The position numbers and the translations under genes were made by a program. Shown piece after piece: positions 12,769-38,021 of a stretch of DNA of 38,170 bases. The notes under the pieces were generated by a model, which was not told the origin of the DNA, ran no database searches, and was given only the letters and a program-made list of their open reading frames with translations. The number at the start of each line of letters is the position of its first letter. Position 1 is the first letter of the stretch. This DNA comes from Pseudoselenomonas ruminantium (lineage in GTDB: Bacteria > Bacillota > Negativicutes > Selenomonadales > Selenomonadaceae): NCBI GenBank assembly GCA_902781305.1, contig CACZIV010000048.1, forward strand, positions 1 through 38,170, given 5' to 3'.

Positions 12769-12785
12769 AAAGACATAATCACATA

Positions 12786-12875
12786 CACGGGAGCTCGCAG
12801 ACGGGCTGAGAGGAAGTTATGCACTTCGACCGCACCTGATTTGGATAATGCCAACGTAGGGAATTAGGAATAACG
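12786..12875 (+). ncRNA. TPP riboswitch (THI element)
   Basis: The conserved THI-box blocks are present in order: GGGAGCTC, the pyrimidine-sensing GGGCTGAGAGG, GACCGCACCTGATTTGGATA, and AATGCCAACGTAGGGAA. Thiamin pyrophosphate binding would favour the terminator just downstream and shut off thiM-thiE-thiD, a classic negative feedback on thiamin salvage genes. Confidence 0.96.
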
Positions 12876-12882
12876 TCATTCG

Positions 12883-16635: not shown

Positions 16636-16822
16636 CAAAGAAGGATAAGCCTGGGGTGTGCGCGGGCTTTTGAAATGTCCAACCTACATTTTTTACAGGG
16701 AGCCTGATTTGATTTTAGTGGAAGTTCGCCTCGGCGTCTCGCGGAAGCTAAACTTAGGGCACCCACCTGCTGATCGCAGGTTTTGGGCATTTAAGGCAGC
16801 GGCAGTTTGGACCCCTTCTTTG
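16636..16822 (+). ncRNA. ssrS: 6S RNA
   Basis: An RNA of about 187 nt whose ends pair (CAAAGAAGG at 16636-16644 with CCTTCTTTG at 16814-16822). Inside is the Firmicutes 6S pattern: CCTGGGGTGTGCGCGG on the 5' side, ACAGGGAGCCTGA, GCCTCGGC, and AGGGCACCCACCTG with GCAGG on the 3' side, framing a large open central bubble. 6S RNA mimics an open promoter and holds sigma-A RNA polymerase in stationary phase. The promoter and terminator flank it closely. Confidence 0.82.
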
Positions 16823-30095: not shown

Positions 30096-30118
30096 GCCAT
30101 CAACCTCATTTCACCCCA

Positions 30119-32104
30119 ATTTCAATCTACCCCCCGTAAAGAGAGCGACTTTTGCAGTGCCAGACATTCATCTGACCTATTGGTAAATTCAATCCACGCT
30201 CCCCGTGAAGGGAGCGACGTGTACTCCTTGCCATTCTCCTGTTCTTCCAACCATATTTCAATCCACGCTCCCCGTGAAGGGAGCGACAGCGTATTGGCGC
30301 CGCCCATGTCCCGGATTTTCTATTTCAATCCACGCTCCCCGTGAAGGGAGCGACGTAGTTGTTATTAACTGGAATAAGCTGGATGATATTTCAATCCACG
30401 CTCCCCGTGAAGGGAGCGACCAAACGTATCGCTAGAATAGCTTGAATCGTCAAATATTTCAATCCACGCTCCCCGTGAAGGGAGCGACCTTCATCGTAGC
30501 CTTCAAATTCTTCTTTTATCAGATTTCAATCCACGCTCCCCGTGAAGGGAGCGACGGCACAGTGATGCTTGACTTCTACGGCGAGTTCACATTTCAATCC
30601 ACGCTCCCCGTGAAGGGAGCGACAGCGCATCAAATCCAGCTCGAGTCATGTTAAGTATTTCAATCCACGCTCCCCGTGAAGGGAGCGACTTCCTTAATGG
30701 GCTGACGGGTATCAATGATATTATTTCAATCCACGCTCCCCGTGAAGGGAGCGACAGATATGAATTCCATTCTCGTGTCTCATATCAATCTATTTCAATC
30801 CACGCTCCCCGTGAAGGGAGCGACGTTGGAAATAGTTCACAGAAATTATTCCATAGATATTTCAATCCACGCTCCCCGTGAAGGGAGCGACCAATAATCG
30901 CGGGGAATTTAGCTGCATATAGTGATATTTCAATCCACGCTCCCCGTGAAGGGAGCGACCAGAGGATTCTGAAAATGGTATTATAGAGATAGGCAATTTC
31001 AATCCACGCTCCCCGTGAAGGGAGCGACCAAGATAAAGAGATGGGACAATCGATTATTAGGGATTTCAATCCACGCTCCCCGTGAAGGGAGCGACATTGG
31101 GCAGATATTCCTGCTGGTGATGGCGATGATATTTCAATCCACGCTCCCCGTGAAGGGAGCGACTGCGCTGTTAAATGCAAATAATCCTAATGATGATTTC
31201 AATCCACGCTCCCCGTGAAGGGAGCGACTGCCCGGCTGATGAACTGGCTATCGCTGGCAGCGGGATTTCAATCCACGCTCCCCGTGAAGGGAGCGACATT
31301 TGCCGTATTTTCCAGTATTTGCGGAATTTGTATTTCAATCCACGCTCCCCGTGAAGGGAGCGACCTAGCGGACGGGAATACGCCGCGAACTCTGACCTTA
31401 TTTCAATCCACGCTCCCCGTGAAGGGAGCGACAACAGCTCGGGTGCAACATATGGAGCAATGAAAAATTTCAATCCACGCTCCCCGTGAAGGGAGCGACT
31501 TGCAACAACTTCTGATGAGCGCACAAGCTCCAGTAATTTCAATCCACGCTCCCCGTGAAGGGAGCGACGTTGAGGAAACCTTTGATACCTACATAGGGTA
31601 CGAATTTCAATCCACGCTCCCCGTGAAGGGAGCGACCAGATAAGCTGCTCAATCTGAGCGCTCCTACCGGTATTTCAATCCACGCTCCCCGTGAAGGGAG
31701 CGACGAGAAGGTGCGGAAAAAGCGGAGGGCTGACAATATTTCAATCCACGCTCCCCGTGAAGGGAGCGACTACAACCCGAACAGCGTGGCACCGCCAGAG
31801 ATATTTCAATCCACGCTCCCCGTGAAGGGAGCGACATTTACAACTTAGGACTTTTTATTTTTTTTAGTTATTTCAATCCACGCTCCCCGTGAAGGGAGCG
31901 ACATCGAAAAAATGATTAAAGCAGATGCTATAAAAATTTCAATCCACGCTCCCCGTGAAGGGAGCGACCGGAACACCGTATCAGACATGGTCGGATGTAT
32001 GGGATTTCAATCCACGCTCCCCGTGAAGGGAGCGACGGTATCTGCTTGTCTGCATACAAAAATTCATCATCATTTCAATCCACGCTCCCCGTGAAGGGAG
32101 CGAC
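30119..32104 (-). CRISPR. Type I-C CRISPR array, 30 repeats and 29 spacers
   Basis: The repeat is 33 bp. On the minus (crRNA) strand it begins GTCGCTCCCTTCACGGGG and ends CGTGGATTGAAAT, the I-C consensus style with an 11-nt handle TGGATTGAAAT. I count 30 units starting at plus-strand positions 30119, 30186, 30255, 30322, 30388 and so on to 32072, with spacers of 32-36 nt. The unit at 30119-30149 is clearly degenerate (31 bp, five or more changes) and the one at 30186 has one change. These are the old, leader-distal end, so transcription runs right to left and the newest spacer is at 32037-32071. All other repeats look identical. Confidence 0.98.
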
Positions 32105-32256: not shown

Positions 32257-33147
32257 TCAAATCAATTCCGTACAAGTGACACCATCAGGCATATCACTTT
32301 GATTAACTTTTATCTCGTAATCACCAAAGGAACGCGGCGTTTCGGTCTCTCGCCGTTGCACCGTAACACGATCAAACAACTGATAAGCAGGTGCATTGCC
32401 CAATTCACTTTCATGCTTGAATACAATAAGTTTCCTCACCGCCATATTGCCACGAGCCGCCGAATGGTCCAGTTCAAACATGTTGATGATAGCCTTCCAC
32501 AACAGTTCCAAATCTTCTTCGCTAAAACCGGTAGTCTTTCTGGCTAAATTGGCAGAGATATGACCCTCCACACGATAAAGGGCATACGGAACAATGAATT
32601 TCCGCCCCAGCATGGTATTCTTACCACTTTCCAATTCATTTTCTGTCGCAACCGTCAAACGAGAAATTGCAACTTCCTGCGGCATAATCGGGTCAATACT
32701 ACGTGCAAATCCTAATTGTACAGGGCCACGTACCTGCCCACAGTTTAATTTTGCCGCAGTGAATGTAGTCATAACCGCCCCAAAAGTTCTAATGTCAAAG
32801 AAATTCTTACACATGAAATCACGAATCTTCACATCCGCATCAGGGTCTTTCTTCTTGATATCTTTTGCCTCTGCATCACTAATCCCCAAATAAGCAAAAG
32901 CCTCTTTATTGCTCCGTTCCAAGGGAACGCGCTCTTTTACATAAATGCGGCAGCCTTCCTTCCCCTCACAGGCCGCTTCCACATAGTTACGAATCTTACG
33001 CTTTAGGCAAACATCTGTTACCAGCCCATGTCCGGTTTCCTGGTCAATCCGAGGCATATTTCCTGCATCCGGGTCGCCATTTGGATTGCCATTCTCCACA
33101 TCAAAAAACACCACAAAATCATAACGATTTTTGATAATCTCAGCCAT
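32257..33147 (-). CDS. cas7: Cascade backbone protein Cas7c (Csd2)
   Basis: 296 aa. Cas7 subunits polymerise along the crRNA in the type I-C Cascade. It starts MAEIIKNRYDFVVFFDVENG, then NPNGDPDAGNMPRIDQETGHG, the Csd2 signature, and has a central FFDIRTFGAVMTTFTAAKLN and VRGPVQLGFARSIDPI. The ATG at 33147 (AAGGAGG at 9 nt) is preferred over 33156, which abuts the ribosome site. It overlaps the cas8c end by 8 nt. Usually cas4 follows directly; here the leader and array intervene. Confidence 0.95.
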   Translation of the reverse strand: MAEIIKNRYDFVVFFDVENGNPNGDPDAGNMPRIDQETGHGLVTDVCLKRKIRNYVEAACEGKEGCRIYVKERVPLERSNKEAFAYLGISDAEAKDIKKKDPDADVKIRDFMCKNFFDIRTFGAVMTTFTAAKLNCGQVRGPVQLGFARSIDPIMPQEVAISRLTVATENELESGKNTMLGRKFIVPYALYRVEGHISANLARKTTGFSEEDLELLWKAIINMFELDHSAARGNMAVRKLIVFKHESELGNAPAYQLFDRVTVQRRETETPRSFGDYEIKVNQSDMPDGVTCTELI

Positions 33148-33511
33148 TGTCCTCATCCTCCTTCTTCGTATACCGTGCCTGTACTTGATGATAATAACCT
33201 AAAACAAACATACCTTGTTCTTTTAATGGCAAAATATTGGGTATCGCGCCTGCATCTATCTTTCCCATAAGTAAGGTCAGCTGTTTTTCAAAGTAAATCT
33301 TCTTGCCATCTTCCAGTTTTCGCAAATGATGACCAGATAGTTTCTGCAAAATCGGGAAAATCCTAGCTGGAGTTGCACACGCTGAGTCAAAATACTTATC
33401 CTTAATGGTCGCATTAACCCCTTTATTTGCCTCCGCTTGGATATGTTCCCAAACTGCAAACACTCGCCCCAACACATATGCTACATCATTTTCATTTTCA
33501 TTCAAAGCCAC
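33140..33511 (-). CDS. cas11: Small Cascade subunit Cas11c, internal translation of cas8c
   Basis: In type I-C the small subunit is made from an internal start in cas8c. Here GAGAGGG at plus 33518-33524 lies six nt before an in-frame GTG at 33511. The 123-aa product begins MALNENENDVAYVLGRVFAV, closely like the known Cas11c start (a short NxN stretch, then AYxLGRLFAV). Size and position match. It would line the Cascade belly and stabilise the R-loop. Confidence 0.75.
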   Translation of the reverse strand: MALNENENDVAYVLGRVFAVWEHIQAEANKGVNATIKDKYFDSACATPARIFPILQKLSGHHLRKLEDGKKIYFEKQLTLLMGKIDAGAIPNILPLKEQGMFVLGYYHQVQARYTKKEDEDNG

Positions 33512-34900
33512 AGTTATCCCTCTCTTTCCATTGCGACACAGATATGCCTTAATTATCGCACAACGCTCATAGGTTATTTTATATGACGGCGGGCTTGCCT
33601 CTGTATCATCCTGCTCCGAACGGATACGCAACATAACGTATTGAAAAAACGAAGCCGGATATCTGCTGCCTGTCAGTATAGATTTCAATACTGCTCCCGA
33701 TAAAAGTGGCGAAGCAGCCTTATCCTTCGATTTCGGCGATACTGTGGCTGCCAACATCTGCCATAATGGAATATGCTTCTTCTTTTTCGGTGGACGCACA
33801 AGCTCCATATTTTCCATATGTTTTGCGGCATTTTTTAGGATGTTTCCAAAAGTAGATTGCAAGAAAAACCGTACCGACAGCCGTGCCGCATTGGGTGACA
33901 AACCCAAAATATAAAACTTATTACTATACTTTATGTCTACGCCTTGAAAATTAATAGGTTCATCTTTTTTCAAGCAAGAGAATATATAATCCAGGTCTTT
34001 ATCTTCCATAATATTCTCATCTTGCAGACAAAAACCTCCAAAGCAGTTCTGATAGGTTTCGCTATCCTGCTCCGCCCAATAAACCAATGTAGTATCACCA
34101 AATACTTTTACATGGCTGCTATCTGCCAACAAAGCATTCAATGCCGTAGTATAGGCAAATGCCGCATATTCAGATACTGGTGCATTCAATCCTTGTCCAT
34201 TGTCACGCCCATAAGATTCATAAGCCGGTGCGTTGAAGGAAACCAGCGAAGCCCCAGAAGACTGCGCATTACGCACACCTTTTATGGAAGGGTGCAACCT
34301 GGCTACCGGGGATACTTCACCAGTAATCAGGCATTGCATTTTCACGGCTCCATCCTCTTGTTCACGATATCTCTGCCATGAATTACGGATTTCTTCATCT
34401 TCGATTGAAAACTTATCTCCCAACATGAAAATAAGATTACTGCTCTGCATCAATTCTTCCAAATCATCCTGTAAAACAGCACAAGAAGAAATTTCTGTTG
34501 GTTTCCAATTTGCAAAGAACTTCTTAATCGCTAACGCCATTTTTGAAGAACATTCAGACAAAATTTCCTGATGGAACTTTGCTGCGGCTTGGAAGCATTT
34601 TTCACTGCGCTCCGGTTTTCCCTTGTTATCTACCCCCAGCAAATAAGTAGAATTATCACAAAGGAACTGCGGGACTATTCCACTTGCTCGCTTAGACTGT
34701 TCCGGAACCCAATATTCGTTAGGAACTACGACAGATTTTTTCCCCCGCTGTTCCTCTTTACGCAAATCATGTACCTGCACCACCTTACCGTCATCGTCCA
34801 GACGCAAGGCAAATGACACTTTTGCCTTGCTCCAGCCTGGTCTGGGAACCTTCCCTTCAGCAGCCAGACTCTCATAATGTTTGACCAAAGCCTCCAGCAT
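33140..34900 (-). CDS. cas8c: Cascade large subunit Cas8c (Csd1)
   Basis: 586 aa. It recognises the PAM and recruits Cas3. Csd1 hallmarks are MLEALVKHYESLAAEGKVPR, NEYWVPEQSKRASGIVPQFL, KMQCLITGEVSPVARLHPSI and FYILGLSPNAARLSVRFFLQ. The start codon overlaps the cas5c stop (TAATG), and the 3' end overlaps cas7c, giving a tightly coupled three-gene interference operon. The last 123 codons double as cas11c. Confidence 0.96.
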   Translation of the reverse strand: MLEALVKHYESLAAEGKVPRPGWSKAKVSFALRLDDDGKVVQVHDLRKEEQRGKKSVVVPNEYWVPEQSKRASGIVPQFLCDNSTYLLGVDNKGKPERSEKCFQAAAKFHQEILSECSSKMALAIKKFFANWKPTEISSCAVLQDDLEELMQSSNLIFMLGDKFSIEDEEIRNSWQRYREQEDGAVKMQCLITGEVSPVARLHPSIKGVRNAQSSGASLVSFNAPAYESYGRDNGQGLNAPVSEYAAFAYTTALNALLADSSHVKVFGDTTLVYWAEQDSETYQNCFGGFCLQDENIMEDKDLDYIFSCLKKDEPINFQGVDIKYSNKFYILGLSPNAARLSVRFFLQSTFGNILKNAAKHMENMELVRPPKKKKHIPLWQMLAATVSPKSKDKAASPLLSGAVLKSILTGSRYPASFFQYVMLRIRSEQDDTEASPPSYKITYERCAIIKAYLCRNGKRGITVALNENENDVAYVLGRVFAVWEHIQAEANKGVNATIKDKYFDSACATPARIFPILQKLSGHHLRKLEDGKKIYFEKQLTLLMGKIDAGAIPNILPLKEQGMFVLGYYHQVQARYTKKEDEDNG

Positions 34901-35559
34901 TATGCATACACCTCCGGCTTCGTTACATCTAAGACACCATTTTTCAGCACTGCCCGAAAGAACATCGGCCGAATATCTTCAGGATTCGAATAGTCCATAT
35001 CATAGAGCATGAACCCCAAATCTTTTTCCTCGTCGGGATAGGCTGTGTTTATCTCTGTACCTTCATAAGGCCGCACATCTGCCGGAAATTCCCGGCACCC
35101 CAGATACGGCATATGATAACATTGCCCTTTCTTTAAGCGGCGTTGAAACATTTCATGAAATTTTGCGGTATTATCCGTAGCATTGGCCTTTTCCGTCATC
35201 ACAAAATGCGCATCAATCACATAGTGCACATCCCGCAGAACCATCGATGCCCTCTGCTGGATATTTTCTGTTGTCGCCAAATACAGTTCACCACTCCCCT
35301 GATTGGCTACCTTCAAGACATTGGCTGCGGAAATCTTGGCCTTGACTTCATTCCGACGAACATTGTCAAACTTAATCGGATTCAGAACATATATCCGGTC
35401 AATCTTGTATTGCATTCCCGGATGCCAAAAAATCGCCTCCAATATCCCTCTAGCCGCCGAAGGTGTGATGCAATCATAGCTCACACGCTCCACTTTCATC
35501 TCCGGGCGGGAGAACAAGGCATAGTCGCCTCGCACATCCACACGAAATCCATAACTCAT
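34900..35559 (-). CDS. cas5c: Cascade subunit and crRNA-processing endonuclease Cas5c (Cas5d)
   Basis: 219 aa. In type I-C there is no Cas6; Cas5c cuts the repeat at the 3' base of its hairpin and keeps the 11-nt handle. It starts MSYGFRVDVRGDYALFSRPE, then MKVERVSYDCITPSAARGIL, the family signature. It is first gene of the interference operon behind a perfect consensus promoter (35601-35629), which lies under the CreR-like target site. It should also process the degenerate repeat of that RNA if the hairpin is accepted. Confidence 0.95.
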   Translation of the reverse strand: MSYGFRVDVRGDYALFSRPEMKVERVSYDCITPSAARGILEAIFWHPGMQYKIDRIYVLNPIKFDNVRRNEVKAKISAANVLKVANQGSGELYLATTENIQQRASMVLRDVHYVIDAHFVMTEKANATDNTAKFHEMFQRRLKKGQCYHMPYLGCREFPADVRPYEGTEINTAYPDEEKDLGFMLYDMDYSNPEDIRPMFFRAVLKNGVLDVTKPEVYA

Positions 35560-35580: not shown

Positions 35581-35601
35581 TTCACTTTATTTTTATGTTA
35601 A
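35581..35601 (+). promoter_or_regulatory. CreR-like target site: TTC PAM plus protospacer in the cas5c promoter
   Basis: TTC at 35581-35583 (the I-C PAM) is followed by ACTTTATTTTTATGTTAA at 35584-35601. The guide of the adjacent small RNA reads ACTTTGTTTTTATGTTAA: 17 of 18 match and the one difference is position 6, a base normally flipped out in Cascade guides. The site starts on the last base of the -10 box and covers the predicted cas5c transcript start (about 35594). Confidence 0.85.
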
Positions 35602-35629
35602 TTATACATCTCTTATTTCTATATGTCAA
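35601..35629 (-). promoter_or_regulatory. Consensus promoter of cas5c-cas8c-cas7c
   Basis: On the minus strand a perfect TTGACA (35629-35624), a 17-bp spacer and a perfect TATAAT (35606-35601). Such a strong promoter would need a brake, which fits the overlapping target site. Confidence 0.88.
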
Positions 35630-35644
35630 TAAATAACCTGTCCA

Positions 35645-35673
35645 TAGACAACTGTTCTCTGATTTGTTATCAT
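35645..35673 (+). promoter_or_regulatory. Promoter of the CreR-like RNA
   Basis: TAGACA (35645-35650), a 17-bp spacer and TATCAT (35668-35673), each one base off consensus. It is divergent from the cas5c promoter with 15 bp between the two -35 boxes. The predicted start, about 35680, is the first base of the degenerate repeat. Confidence 0.72.
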
Positions 35674-35679
35674 ATACCT

Positions 35680-35780
35680 GTCGTCAAGTTTTTGACGTGG
35701 ATTGAAATACTTTGTTTTTATGTTAAGACAGGGAGCAAAGCAGGTTCAGAGTTTATTCTCTGCACCTGCTTTGCTTTTTA
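35680..35780 (+). ncRNA. creR: CreR-like crRNA-mimic RNA, predicted guide for cas autorepression
   Basis: The degenerate repeat at 35680-35708 keeps both ends of the array repeat, GTCG and CGTGGATTGAAAT. The 16-nt hairpin core is replaced by 12 nt, still forming CGTCAA/TTGACG with a GTTT loop and leaving the same 11-nt handle. The guide at 35709-35726 (ACTTTGTTTTTATGTTAA) matches the cas5c promoter beside a TTC PAM. A short linker leads into a strong terminator. No second repeat follows, so the 3' end comes from termination. Known precedents are CreA/CreR RNAs of other type I systems. The role as Cascade-loaded repressor is inference; the match and layout are direct observation. Confidence 0.85.
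35734..35780 (+). terminator. Terminator of the CreR-like RNA
   Basis: AGCAAAGCAGGTTCAGAG pairs with CTCTGCACCTGCTTTGCT around a short loop, followed by TTTTTAG. It overlaps the cas3 stop codon and may also end the cas3 transcript, though without a T-run in that direction. Confidence 0.88.
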
Positions 35781-38021
35781 GATAAATACGCCCTGCCCAT
35801 CTTCAATATTCAACTGCAAACCCATTGTATGGCTATAACTCTCCATATCAATCAGTATGGCCACACTATCATCTAAAACTTCTATTTTGTTCGCTGCGTT
35901 CAACTTTTCAAAATGACTTTTGTAATTATCACCACAGTATACATTGACCATATACTTCCCTGCCTCCCGCATCAGACGCCGCGACTTTATGCCCTGACGG
36001 AGCTGTTTTTCAATCTCCTGTCCTGCTTCATCATAAGGAATGAACACTGGTCGCGTAGGCGTATCTATCAGCACAAACTTCTTTGCCGCATCAGCAAAAG
36101 GCATGAATTGTTCTCGTATCATCTTCATGATCCCCTTGCAATCTAACTTATTCTCTGTCCACTCACCTCCATCTATCTTATGCAATTGATCAAAATAAGC
36201 CGTTATAGCTATTGGATTATCAATATCATCACAATGCAATTCACAAACATTCTTTGTTGCATCACTGCGAACTCTCAAACTATGCTGAGAATTCCCCATT
36301 GCCTTATCCGCCCAGGTAAAAACATACACCAAACTTTCCTCTTTTGCCCTGCGACCTTCACGGTTGCAGCGGCCTGCCGCCTGAATGATGCTATCCAAGC
36401 CCGCCATTTCCCGATAAACACAAGGGAAATCAACATCCACACCAGCTTCTATCAGACTGGTAGAAATTACCCGACATGGCTTGCCATCCAACAACGCTTG
36501 TCTTATCTGTGCTAATACTGCTTTACGATGCTGCGGACAAAGGTTAGTGGATAAATGGAAACAGTTCTCCGCCCCGTCCAAAGCCGCAAATAGTTCTCTG
36601 GCGGCTTTCTTCGTATTCACAATGCAAAGAACCTGTTTTTTCTCCTGCAAGCAATCAGCCATATCCGCCAAAGTCACCTTCTGCGGCAACAGTTCTATCT
36701 TCGTCCTTTTGAAAAACTCGTATTCCTCCGTAACATTTCTACATATTTCTTTTATTTCCCTCTGATAATCTTCCCCAAAAATTTTATTCAAGGAAGGCTG
36801 CGTAGCCGTACAAAGAACTGCCGTTGCCAGATAATGCTGTGTAAGCTCATGGATTGCCGCAAGACAGGGACGCAGGTAATCAATCGGCAGCATCTGAGCT
36901 TCATCAAAGATGATTACGCTGTCAGCAATATTATGCAGCTTTCGGCACCTTGAAGTACGGTTGGCAAACAATGACTCAAAAAACTGCACATTAGTCGTCA
37001 CGATTAATGGCGCATCCCAATTTTCAGTGGCCAGCTGTTTCTTCAACTGCTTGTCATAATCGCCATCATCAAATGCCGGCGAATAATCCACCTGACAATG
37101 GTGCTCAATAACATTTTCATCCCCCAGAATCTCCCGGAACACCTTGGCATTCTGCTCAATAATACTCGTATAGGGAATTACATAAATCACACGTTTTTTC
37201 CCCGTGCGCACGGCATGATGTAAGGCAAATGCCAATGATGCAATGGTTTTGCCACCGCCCGTGGGTACGGTAAGACTTAAAAGGCTTGAACCTTCATCCG
37301 CCTCTCCTGCCGCAATACACTCCCGCAGAATTTTTCGTCGGTGCTGATTGATAGGTTCGTCATAACGCTTGCCCTGTTCATTAAGAAATTTTTCCGATAT
37401 ATAGGCATCCAGTCTTTCCTTCAATTCTGATATAGACGCAAAATCTCCCCGTGCATTTTCTCCCAGCTGCATAAATTCTTCTGTATCCAAAAAATCTGCA
37501 TCTACCAAACAGGAAAAAAGCATACGCGTGTAAAACTGGCCAGCAAAAAAATCCCGGCCAAACCGTGGGATTAGCTGTGATTTGTCTACCTCAAGCACAT
37601 CAACCACTTCTTCCCGATATGCTTGATAGTTTGGTATATCCTGCCCCGGCTTCTTCTTTAAGCGCCCACACAAACTCCGACTTTCTTCCGTGTCCGCTTT
37701 TGAGTTTCCGCCATTCAACAAGCCGCTATGATGTCCGGCCACACAAAAAGCTGTTGGTATAGACAGCGGACTTTTCTTCTTCATTATCTCCAAGGCACCA
37801 GCCGTAGAATGATCAAACTTACGGCCGCCCCCTTGACGCAAATACGTCTGAAACTCCTGCGAGTATTTGCCGATATCATGATACAGCCCCACCATCCTTC
37901 CAGCTGCTTCTTCCCCAAAGGCAGCCGCGAAAGCGCCCGCCTTATCACTGACACCATGCAAATGATCAATCAACAGTTGTTCCCTTCCATTTTCTTCATC
38001 TCGATGTGCTAAATATTCCAT
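35778..38021 (-). CDS. cas3: CRISPR-associated helicase-nuclease Cas3 (type I-C)
   Basis: 747 aa. The N-terminal HD nuclease has IDHLHGVSDKAG, YHDIGKYSQEF (His48-Asp49), FDHSTAGALEIM and AGHHSG. The helicase has Walker A TVPTGGGKT, the DEAQ box IIFDEAQMLPIDYL, CTATQPSLNKIFG and the late VISTSLIEAGVDVDFP motif. Cas3 unwinds and degrades target DNA once Cascade has formed a full R-loop. The ATG follows AGGAAGGG. It is set apart from cas5c by the 218-bp CreR region, so it is probably transcribed from its own promoter and may escape the repression acting on the Cascade genes. Confidence 0.96.
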   Translation of the reverse strand: MEYLAHRDEENGREQLLIDHLHGVSDKAGAFAAAFGEEAAGRMVGLYHDIGKYSQEFQTYLRQGGGRKFDHSTAGALEIMKKKSPLSIPTAFCVAGHHSGLLNGGNSKADTEESRSLCGRLKKKPGQDIPNYQAYREEVVDVLEVDKSQLIPRFGRDFFAGQFYTRMLFSCLVDADFLDTEEFMQLGENARGDFASISELKERLDAYISEKFLNEQGKRYDEPINQHRRKILRECIAAGEADEGSSLLSLTVPTGGGKTIASLAFALHHAVRTGKKRVIYVIPYTSIIEQNAKVFREILGDENVIEHHCQVDYSPAFDDGDYDKQLKKQLATENWDAPLIVTTNVQFFESLFANRTSRCRKLHNIADSVIIFDEAQMLPIDYLRPCLAAIHELTQHYLATAVLCTATQPSLNKIFGEDYQREIKEICRNVTEEYEFFKRTKIELLPQKVTLADMADCLQEKKQVLCIVNTKKAARELFAALDGAENCFHLSTNLCPQHRKAVLAQIRQALLDGKPCRVISTSLIEAGVDVDFPCVYREMAGLDSIIQAAGRCNREGRRAKEESLVYVFTWADKAMGNSQHSLRVRSDATKNVCELHCDDIDNPIAITAYFDQLHKIDGGEWTENKLDCKGIMKMIREQFMPFADAAKKFVLIDTPTRPVFIPYDEAGQEIEKQLRQGIKSRRLMREAGKYMVNVYCGDNYKSHFEKLNAANKIEVLDDSVAILIDMESYSHTMGLQLNIEDGQGVFI

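Follow-up and report, generated by a model that had tools for sequence, protein, structure and literature searches.

Can a type I-C CRISPR-Cas system (clustered regularly interspaced short palindromic repeats and associated genes) limit the level of its own effector complex, Cascade, by means of an RNA that resembles a CRISPR RNA (crRNA)? The question is raised by a stretch of 38,170 nucleotides (nt) from Pseudoselenomonas ruminantium (contig CACZIV010000048.1, positions 1 to 38,170; below, the window), where the 218-nt junction between cas3 and cas5c carries a single degenerate CRISPR repeat followed by an 18-nt guide. The initial annotation of the window had this crRNA-like RNA guide Cascade to its own cas5c promoter, and the idea is supported by co-changing guides and targets and by mismatches at guide positions 6, 12, and 18. 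We consider it very probable that the solo-repeat RNA is a CreR and that Cascade loaded with it represses cas5c-cas8c-cas7c. Recognition of the promoter by the guide is well supported by sequence comparison; repression and sensing are what we infer from it.

Guide and target in the cas3-cas5c junction

The target, the two promoters, and the parts of the predicted guide RNA are arranged in the junction as follows.

35581-35583, plus strand: TTC, the protospacer-adjacent motif (PAM), read from the sequence
35584-35601, plus strand: target (protospacer), overlapping the last base of the -10 element and the expected cas5c start site
35601-35629, minus strand: cas5c promoter TTGACA-N17-TATAAT, 12/12 consensus
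35645-35673, plus strand: guide-RNA promoter TAGACA-N17-TATCAT, 10/12 consensus
35680-35708, plus strand: single degenerate repeat of 29 nt with GTCG, the stem CGTCAA/TTGACG, and an 11-nt handle (pattern search, fold)
35698-35708, plus strand: crRNA 5' handle TGGATTGAAAT, the same as the 3' end of the array repeat (sequence)
35709-35726, plus strand: 18-nt guide ACTTTGTTTTTATGTTAA, matching 35584-35601 at 17/18
35734-35778, plus strand: terminator hairpin and T run closing the guide RNA and abutting the cas3 stop codon (fold, sequence)

The guide-RNA promoter, degenerate repeat, guide, TTC, and target all lie where the initial annotation had placed them, and a recount of guide 35709-35726 against target 35584-35601 again gives 17/18 identical bases with the single mismatch at position 6. 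At a TTC site of the junction, one of 1,000,000 shuffled guides reaches 17/18. The next-best TTC site for the guide in the whole window has 12/18; as no second TTC site exceeds this value, the guide RNA probably leaves cas3 unrepressed. The source genome is a 2.79-Mb draft, in which TTC followed by the seed (TTCACTTTNTTTTT) occurs once, as does a longer target pattern, with reversed-pattern controls giving 0; the draft is 88.6% complete, hence, a second copy in the missing sequence is possible. For one type I-C system, TTC has been reported as the PAM (PMC8406640).

The solo repeat reads GTCG..CGTGGATTGAAAT and is 29 nt long versus 33 nt for the array repeat. The pattern GTCG-N12..22-TGGATTGAAAY has 29 matches in the draft, i.e., 28 in the array and the solo repeat itself. 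In the predicted fold of a 100-nt RNA, the rewritten 6-bp stem forms (35682-35687/35692-35697) and stops right where the handle begins, and a long hairpin at 35734-35775 is followed by the T run; the fold has a z-score of -8, most of it attributed to this hairpin. The strong terminator of the initial annotation corresponds to this hairpin and T run; a simple terminator scan lists none in the junction, probably due to an internal mismatch in the hairpin. The hairpin (35734-35778) is symmetrical and could also terminate the cas3 mRNA. Rfam gives no gathering-level match within the junction. Promoter, stem, and handle are consistent with an RNA that is made, processed, and bound by Cas proteins.

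Related loci

Two sets of loci (designated by L and a number) were compared. The discovery set comprises 155 distinct loci with a cas5c relative, 146 of them with a mapped cas3 end; here, 80 of 583 relatives and 10 of 45 plasmid records were kept, one further match was left out, and weak Cas5 matches (above 1e-30) and four duplicates were excluded (L091 is a duplicate of L013). The held-out set consists of 32 new loci from the window's own phylum, in groups around two other genomes; 14 of 44 matching genomes were left out, and removal of two duplicates yields 30 distinct loci, 29 with the cas3 end. Solo repeats were picked by the handle, regardless of the guide; hence, the handle is not independent evidence. 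The handle rule was widened by two variants with GATAGAAAT after a first look at the data; these variants and the threshold of 12/18 were chosen after the initial results and frozen before the held-out set. Matches are plain 18-base counts. Scoring blind to positions 6, 12, and 18 was replaced, as it would bias the position test.

In the discovery set, solo repeats are seen in 0/98 junctions shorter than 100 nt and 0/9 of 100-149 nt, in two of the three junctions of 150-199 nt, 25/30 of 200-500 nt, and three of six longer ones. Held-out loci have them in 0/10 junctions shorter than 100 nt and 12/19 of 150-500 nt. With the same handle rule, both sets together show a solo repeat in 39/52 junctions of 150-500 nt and 0/117 junctions below 150 nt. 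Among long junctions without the strict handle, a variant one precedes a guide-target pair in L177, L194, L195, L196, and perhaps L061. The region upstream of cas3 was also searched for such an element, in 76 loci of which 47 have a junction below 150 nt; among the matches listed (up to two per locus), the sole one below 0.05 is the weak L167 (12/18).

Guide-target pairs

The initial annotation had proposed comparing the cas3-cas5c gap in relatives; most of those with a degenerate repeat retain the guide-promoter match, and guide and target covary. In the discovery set, 24/30 guides (the window included) match their own junction with at least 12/18 at TTC; for cross-locus pairings the count is 17/870. 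Type I Cascade skips every sixth guide base; a search of PMC7684278 yielded no statement on this. Mismatches in the 24 pairs are seen at position 6 (15/24), position 12 (20/24), and position 18 (17/24), with 8/240 at positions 1-5 and 7-11. Nine of the 12 held-out guides match at a TTC site of their own junction; in the remaining three, 14-15 of 18 bases match if TTT, CTC, ATC, and GTC are also allowed, giving 12/12 over five triplets. Held-out mismatches in the nine pairs are at positions 6 (9/9), 12 (6/9), and 18 (8/9), with 2/90 at positions 1-5 and 7-11. Pooled over both sets, mismatches amount to 10/330 at positions 1-5 and 7-11 and to 24, 26, and 25 of 33 at positions 6, 12, and 18, respectively.

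If no PAM rule is imposed, 40/42 best matches reach 12/18 (42 solo-repeat loci, the window included), and the triplet beside these 40 is TTC in 32 cases, TTT in seven, and AAC in one, the TTC background being 2.1%. Targets behind a non-TTC triplet are seen in L025, L029, and L194 (TTT) and also in L179, L183, and L198, which suggests a relaxed PAM for regulatory binding.

That the likeness of guide and target stems from a duplicated operator of a protein regulator, or from chance in AT-rich DNA, is barely credible. The region is indeed AT-rich, and without a PAM rule 813/2100 shuffled guides reach 12/18, so that PAM-free matching is weak by itself; however, with the rule only the above one in 10^6 shuffles equals the window match, and TTC emerges unimposed. 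Furthermore, mismatches at every sixth base are unexpected of an operator, and the held-out position counts contradict it (positions 6 and 12 versus the remaining positions 1-17, p about 2e-13).

Covariation and turnover

L084, from the same genus and with Cas5c 95% identical, keeps the layout of the window with a different stem, guide, and target. Compared with the window, guide and target are both changed at positions 2 and 14; its own guide and target mismatch solely at positions 6, 12, and 18, and its guide-RNA promoter is TAGACA-N17-TATTCT. In L086, guide and target are co-changed at positions 2, 5, and 7 and run out of register past position 11. L085, also of the same genus (95%), has a 20-nt junction without the element. 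Given such co-changing pairs in many distant bacteria, the guide-target match is, on sequence grounds, genuine.

Stem sequences vary, yet 33/42 loci have a perfect stem, 4 bp or longer, that runs right up to the handle, versus 17.5% of shuffles; a looser test that allows mismatches separates poorly (29/42 versus 36%). A decaying solo repeat, or a leftover self-targeting spacer devoid of function, would fit the difference between solo repeat and array repeat. We regard this as most improbable: the difference is confined to the stem region, which still pairs; handle and guide match persist through the turnover of guide and target sequences; and the guides of relatives are not random, as seen from the 24/30 (TTC) and the held-out 12/12 (five triplets).

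Several observations weigh against a promoter-guided repressor. Long junctions without the element, even under the relaxed rule, are L026, L028, L051, L122, L168, L169, L193, and L197, and the only pairs in the long junctions of L006, L012, and L187 were judged array, low-complexity, or implausible. Six of the 30 discovery guides remain below 12/18 at TTC, i.e., L022, L087, and L165 (11), L073 (9), L029 (8), and L025 (7); of these, L025 and L029 have good matches behind TTT, and L022, L073, and L165 remain weak. The match spans just 11-12 nt in L086 and L087 (11 nt in L087). The held-out cross-locus control is less clean (8/132), because related species share guides. The predicted fold has nine pairs between the window guide and the tail 3' of it (35710-35733), which might conceal the guide in the free RNA; by eye, the same pairing seems possible in L084. 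Finally, bound Cascade, by analogy interpreted here as a repressor, might instead activate the promoter or have no effect.

Distribution and layouts

A quick FastTree of Cas5c was built for 170/175 loci (those with Cas5c below 180 aa were dropped, and a long-branch warning applies), with L022 and L073 coded as lacking the element and L177, L194, L195, and L196 as having it. The element state changes 27 times on this tree, at least 15 of them on well-supported (starred) branches, gain and loss being inseparable by this tree. Over 15 independent pairs, the element and the long junction occur together in 8-12, the opposite never.

The orientation of the window, with the guide RNA antiparallel to cas5c, holds for 18/30 discovery and 12/12 held-out loci; in 12/30 discovery loci the two are co-oriented. 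Among the latter, seven (L041, L046, L052, L056, L065, L080, and L165) have a guide beginning 69-88 nt ahead of the ATG, with the target 68-221 nt upstream of this guide start. Five of them (L041, L046, L052, L056, and L165) have a hairpin 3' of the guide without a T run; hence, the RNA probably lies inside the leader of the cas mRNA, so that leader and guide RNA would be transcribed together in such loci. L078 is similar, but has two near-consensus repeats after the guide and looks like a true mini-array; other spacings are seen in L057, L066, L072, and L073.

Small frames accompany some of these elements. L046, L065, and L080 share a frame of 24-25 aa in which FG..F..(F/L)E...EPP is conserved; it has no Pfam match and is located between targeted promoter and guide RNA. 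The frames of L065 and L080 pass a ribosome-binding-site filter, that of L046 fails it. The shared frame possibly encodes a leader peptide or a toxin similar to CreT or CreP. In L011, a 29-aa frame about 254 nt upstream of cas5c and downstream of the guide-matched site resembles Hol_Tox (PF16935, putative holin-like toxins; E 0.003, below the curated cut-off).

Frames between the targeted promoter and cas5c (L011, L046, L065, and L080) would fit an antitoxin of the CreA type, where Cascade represses a toxin expressed from the same promoter and the cell depends on Cascade. We regard this as very improbable: in the window, the cas5c ATG follows the expected start site by only about 33 nt, which leaves no room for a toxin frame, whereas CreTA has a toxin RNA or protein gene repressed by the guide RNA. 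Moreover, Pfam gives no match at E <= 1 for six of the seven micro-open-reading-frame (micro-ORF) peptides analysed.

A wider picture, which we put forward tentatively and as somewhat less probable than its converse, is that Cascade-guided autorepression is a recurrent type I-C cassette, gained or lost at least 15 times, that divides one cas3-cas5c operon into two units, a free cas3 and a Cascade operon that limits itself. For several loci with Pseudomonadota or Desulfobacterota record titles, the guide RNA would then sit within the 5' leader of the mRNA it represses, as its own off-switch, in some cases with a micro-ORF for a possible toxin.

Genomic context

At the end of the window, the minus strand carries a complete type I-C system, in the order cas3, cas5c, cas8c, cas7c, array, cas4, cas1c, cas2.

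35778-38021, minus strand: cas3, upstream of the junction (NCBIfam TIGR01587/TIGR01596)
34900-35559, minus strand: cas5c, first gene of the predicted regulated operon (NCBIfam TIGR01876)
33140-34900, minus strand: cas8c (NCBIfam TIGR01863)
32257-33156, minus strand: cas7c (NCBIfam TIGR02589)
30118-32104, minus strand: CRISPR array of 30 repeats, one end repeat degenerate, repeat GTCGCTCCCTTCACGGGGAGCGTGGATTGAAAT

Cas5c, Cas8c, Cas7c, and Cas1c have NCBIfam matches above the cut-off, which places the system in type I-C; cas4 and cas2 are also identified by NCBIfam. The degenerate array repeat (30118-30149) is at the leader-distal end if array transcription starts from the cas7c side. Elsewhere in the window, Rfam finds a 6S RNA (16645-16817) and a thiamine pyrophosphate (TPP) riboswitch (12777-12879), both on the plus strand.

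The context also bears on RNA anti-CRISPRs (Racrs), which are solo repeats, one of them of type I-C, RacrIC1, described in the consulted portion of PMC10651486 as a prophage-encoded inhibitor with no mention there of a promoter guide. An RNA of this kind, titrating Cas5c, is highly unlikely here: the element lies inside a host cas locus whose genes are recognisable along their length, and its guide is matched to the cas promoter, which titration does not need.

Relation to known systems

The kind of regulation proposed, CreR, is already known; the window element is a putative type I-C member. CreR, the cas-regulating RNA, is reportedly due to Liu et al. 2023. Shmakov et al. 2023 reportedly describe solitary repeats, mostly of type I, whose guides match cas promoters in part, and the window element shares both traits with these CRISPR-derived regulatory elements. 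Like CreR, it is a crRNA-like, toxin-free RNA beside cas genes, with a guide partly complementary to a cas promoter behind a PAM and an ectopic degenerate repeat that keeps the crRNA handle, as it does in 41 further relatives (handle rule). The CreR mini-CRISPR usually, not universally, has a second repeat after the guide. The window differs here, with one repeat and a terminator hairpin replacing the second, and in its subtype, I-C. Long-form tracrRNA (trans-activating crRNA) of Cas9 reportedly serves the effector as a natural short guide for repression of its own promoter (Workman et al. 2021); the self-repression logic is the same, whereas the system is class 2 and the RNA unrelated.

In reviews, CreR is named for types I-B, I-E, and V-A (PMC13131331) and placed in type I and V-A generally, the toxin gene being generally not coupled (PMC12737573). 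According to excerpts of PMC9458426, modules of the related CreTA kind contain one repeat or two; hence, the absent second repeat of the window is compatible with CreR. In CreTA, too, a degenerate-repeat RNA directs Cascade to a promoter, and the haloarchaeal PAM is TTC (PMC9458426, PMC10097628, in part); in contrast, the window target is the cas operon, and no toxin frame is present in the window. Degenerate CreTA repeats are described, in the same excerpts, as resisting recombination and staying specific to their own system (PMC9458426). In our assessment, this rationale for the rewritten repeat would be better founded than the block of spacer acquisition offered by the initial annotation. 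A literature search, limited to portions of its sources and not covering Liu et al. 2023 and Shmakov et al. 2023 (doi 10.1093/nar/gkad495), found no type I-C CreR; the latter paper may list one.

Proposed mechanism and implications

In the proposed CreR mechanism, Cas5c would cleave the hairpin and retain the RNA, on which Cas7 and Cas8 would build the complex; Cascade would then occupy the cas5c start region and block RNA polymerase. Cascade with an 18-nt-matched guide is expected, from work on CreTA and CreR, to bind without Cas3 cleavage, and the match of about 18 nt would likewise be too short here for Cas3 recruitment and cleavage. The level of cas5c-cas8c-cas7c would be set by the contest between guide RNA and ordinary crRNAs for Cascade, and repression would be lifted by an anti-CRISPR or if fewer complexes are free. 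Processing of crRNA by Cas5 in type I-C (PMC10651486) and relief of CreR repression by crRNAs or anti-CRISPRs (PMC12737573, PMC13131331) are both reported in the sections available of these papers.

Type I-C, a subtype with a minimal Cascade, is common (PMC7684278). What the present loci add is the scale of guide-target covariation, the pattern of presence and absence, and the leader-embedded layout. The natural guide-target pairs document which bases type I-C Cascade reads. If the proposed CreR regulation holds, self-repression could simply explain expression levels, responses to anti-CRISPRs, and failures of transplanted type I-C systems, and the guide RNA would be a handle for raising or lowering Cascade.
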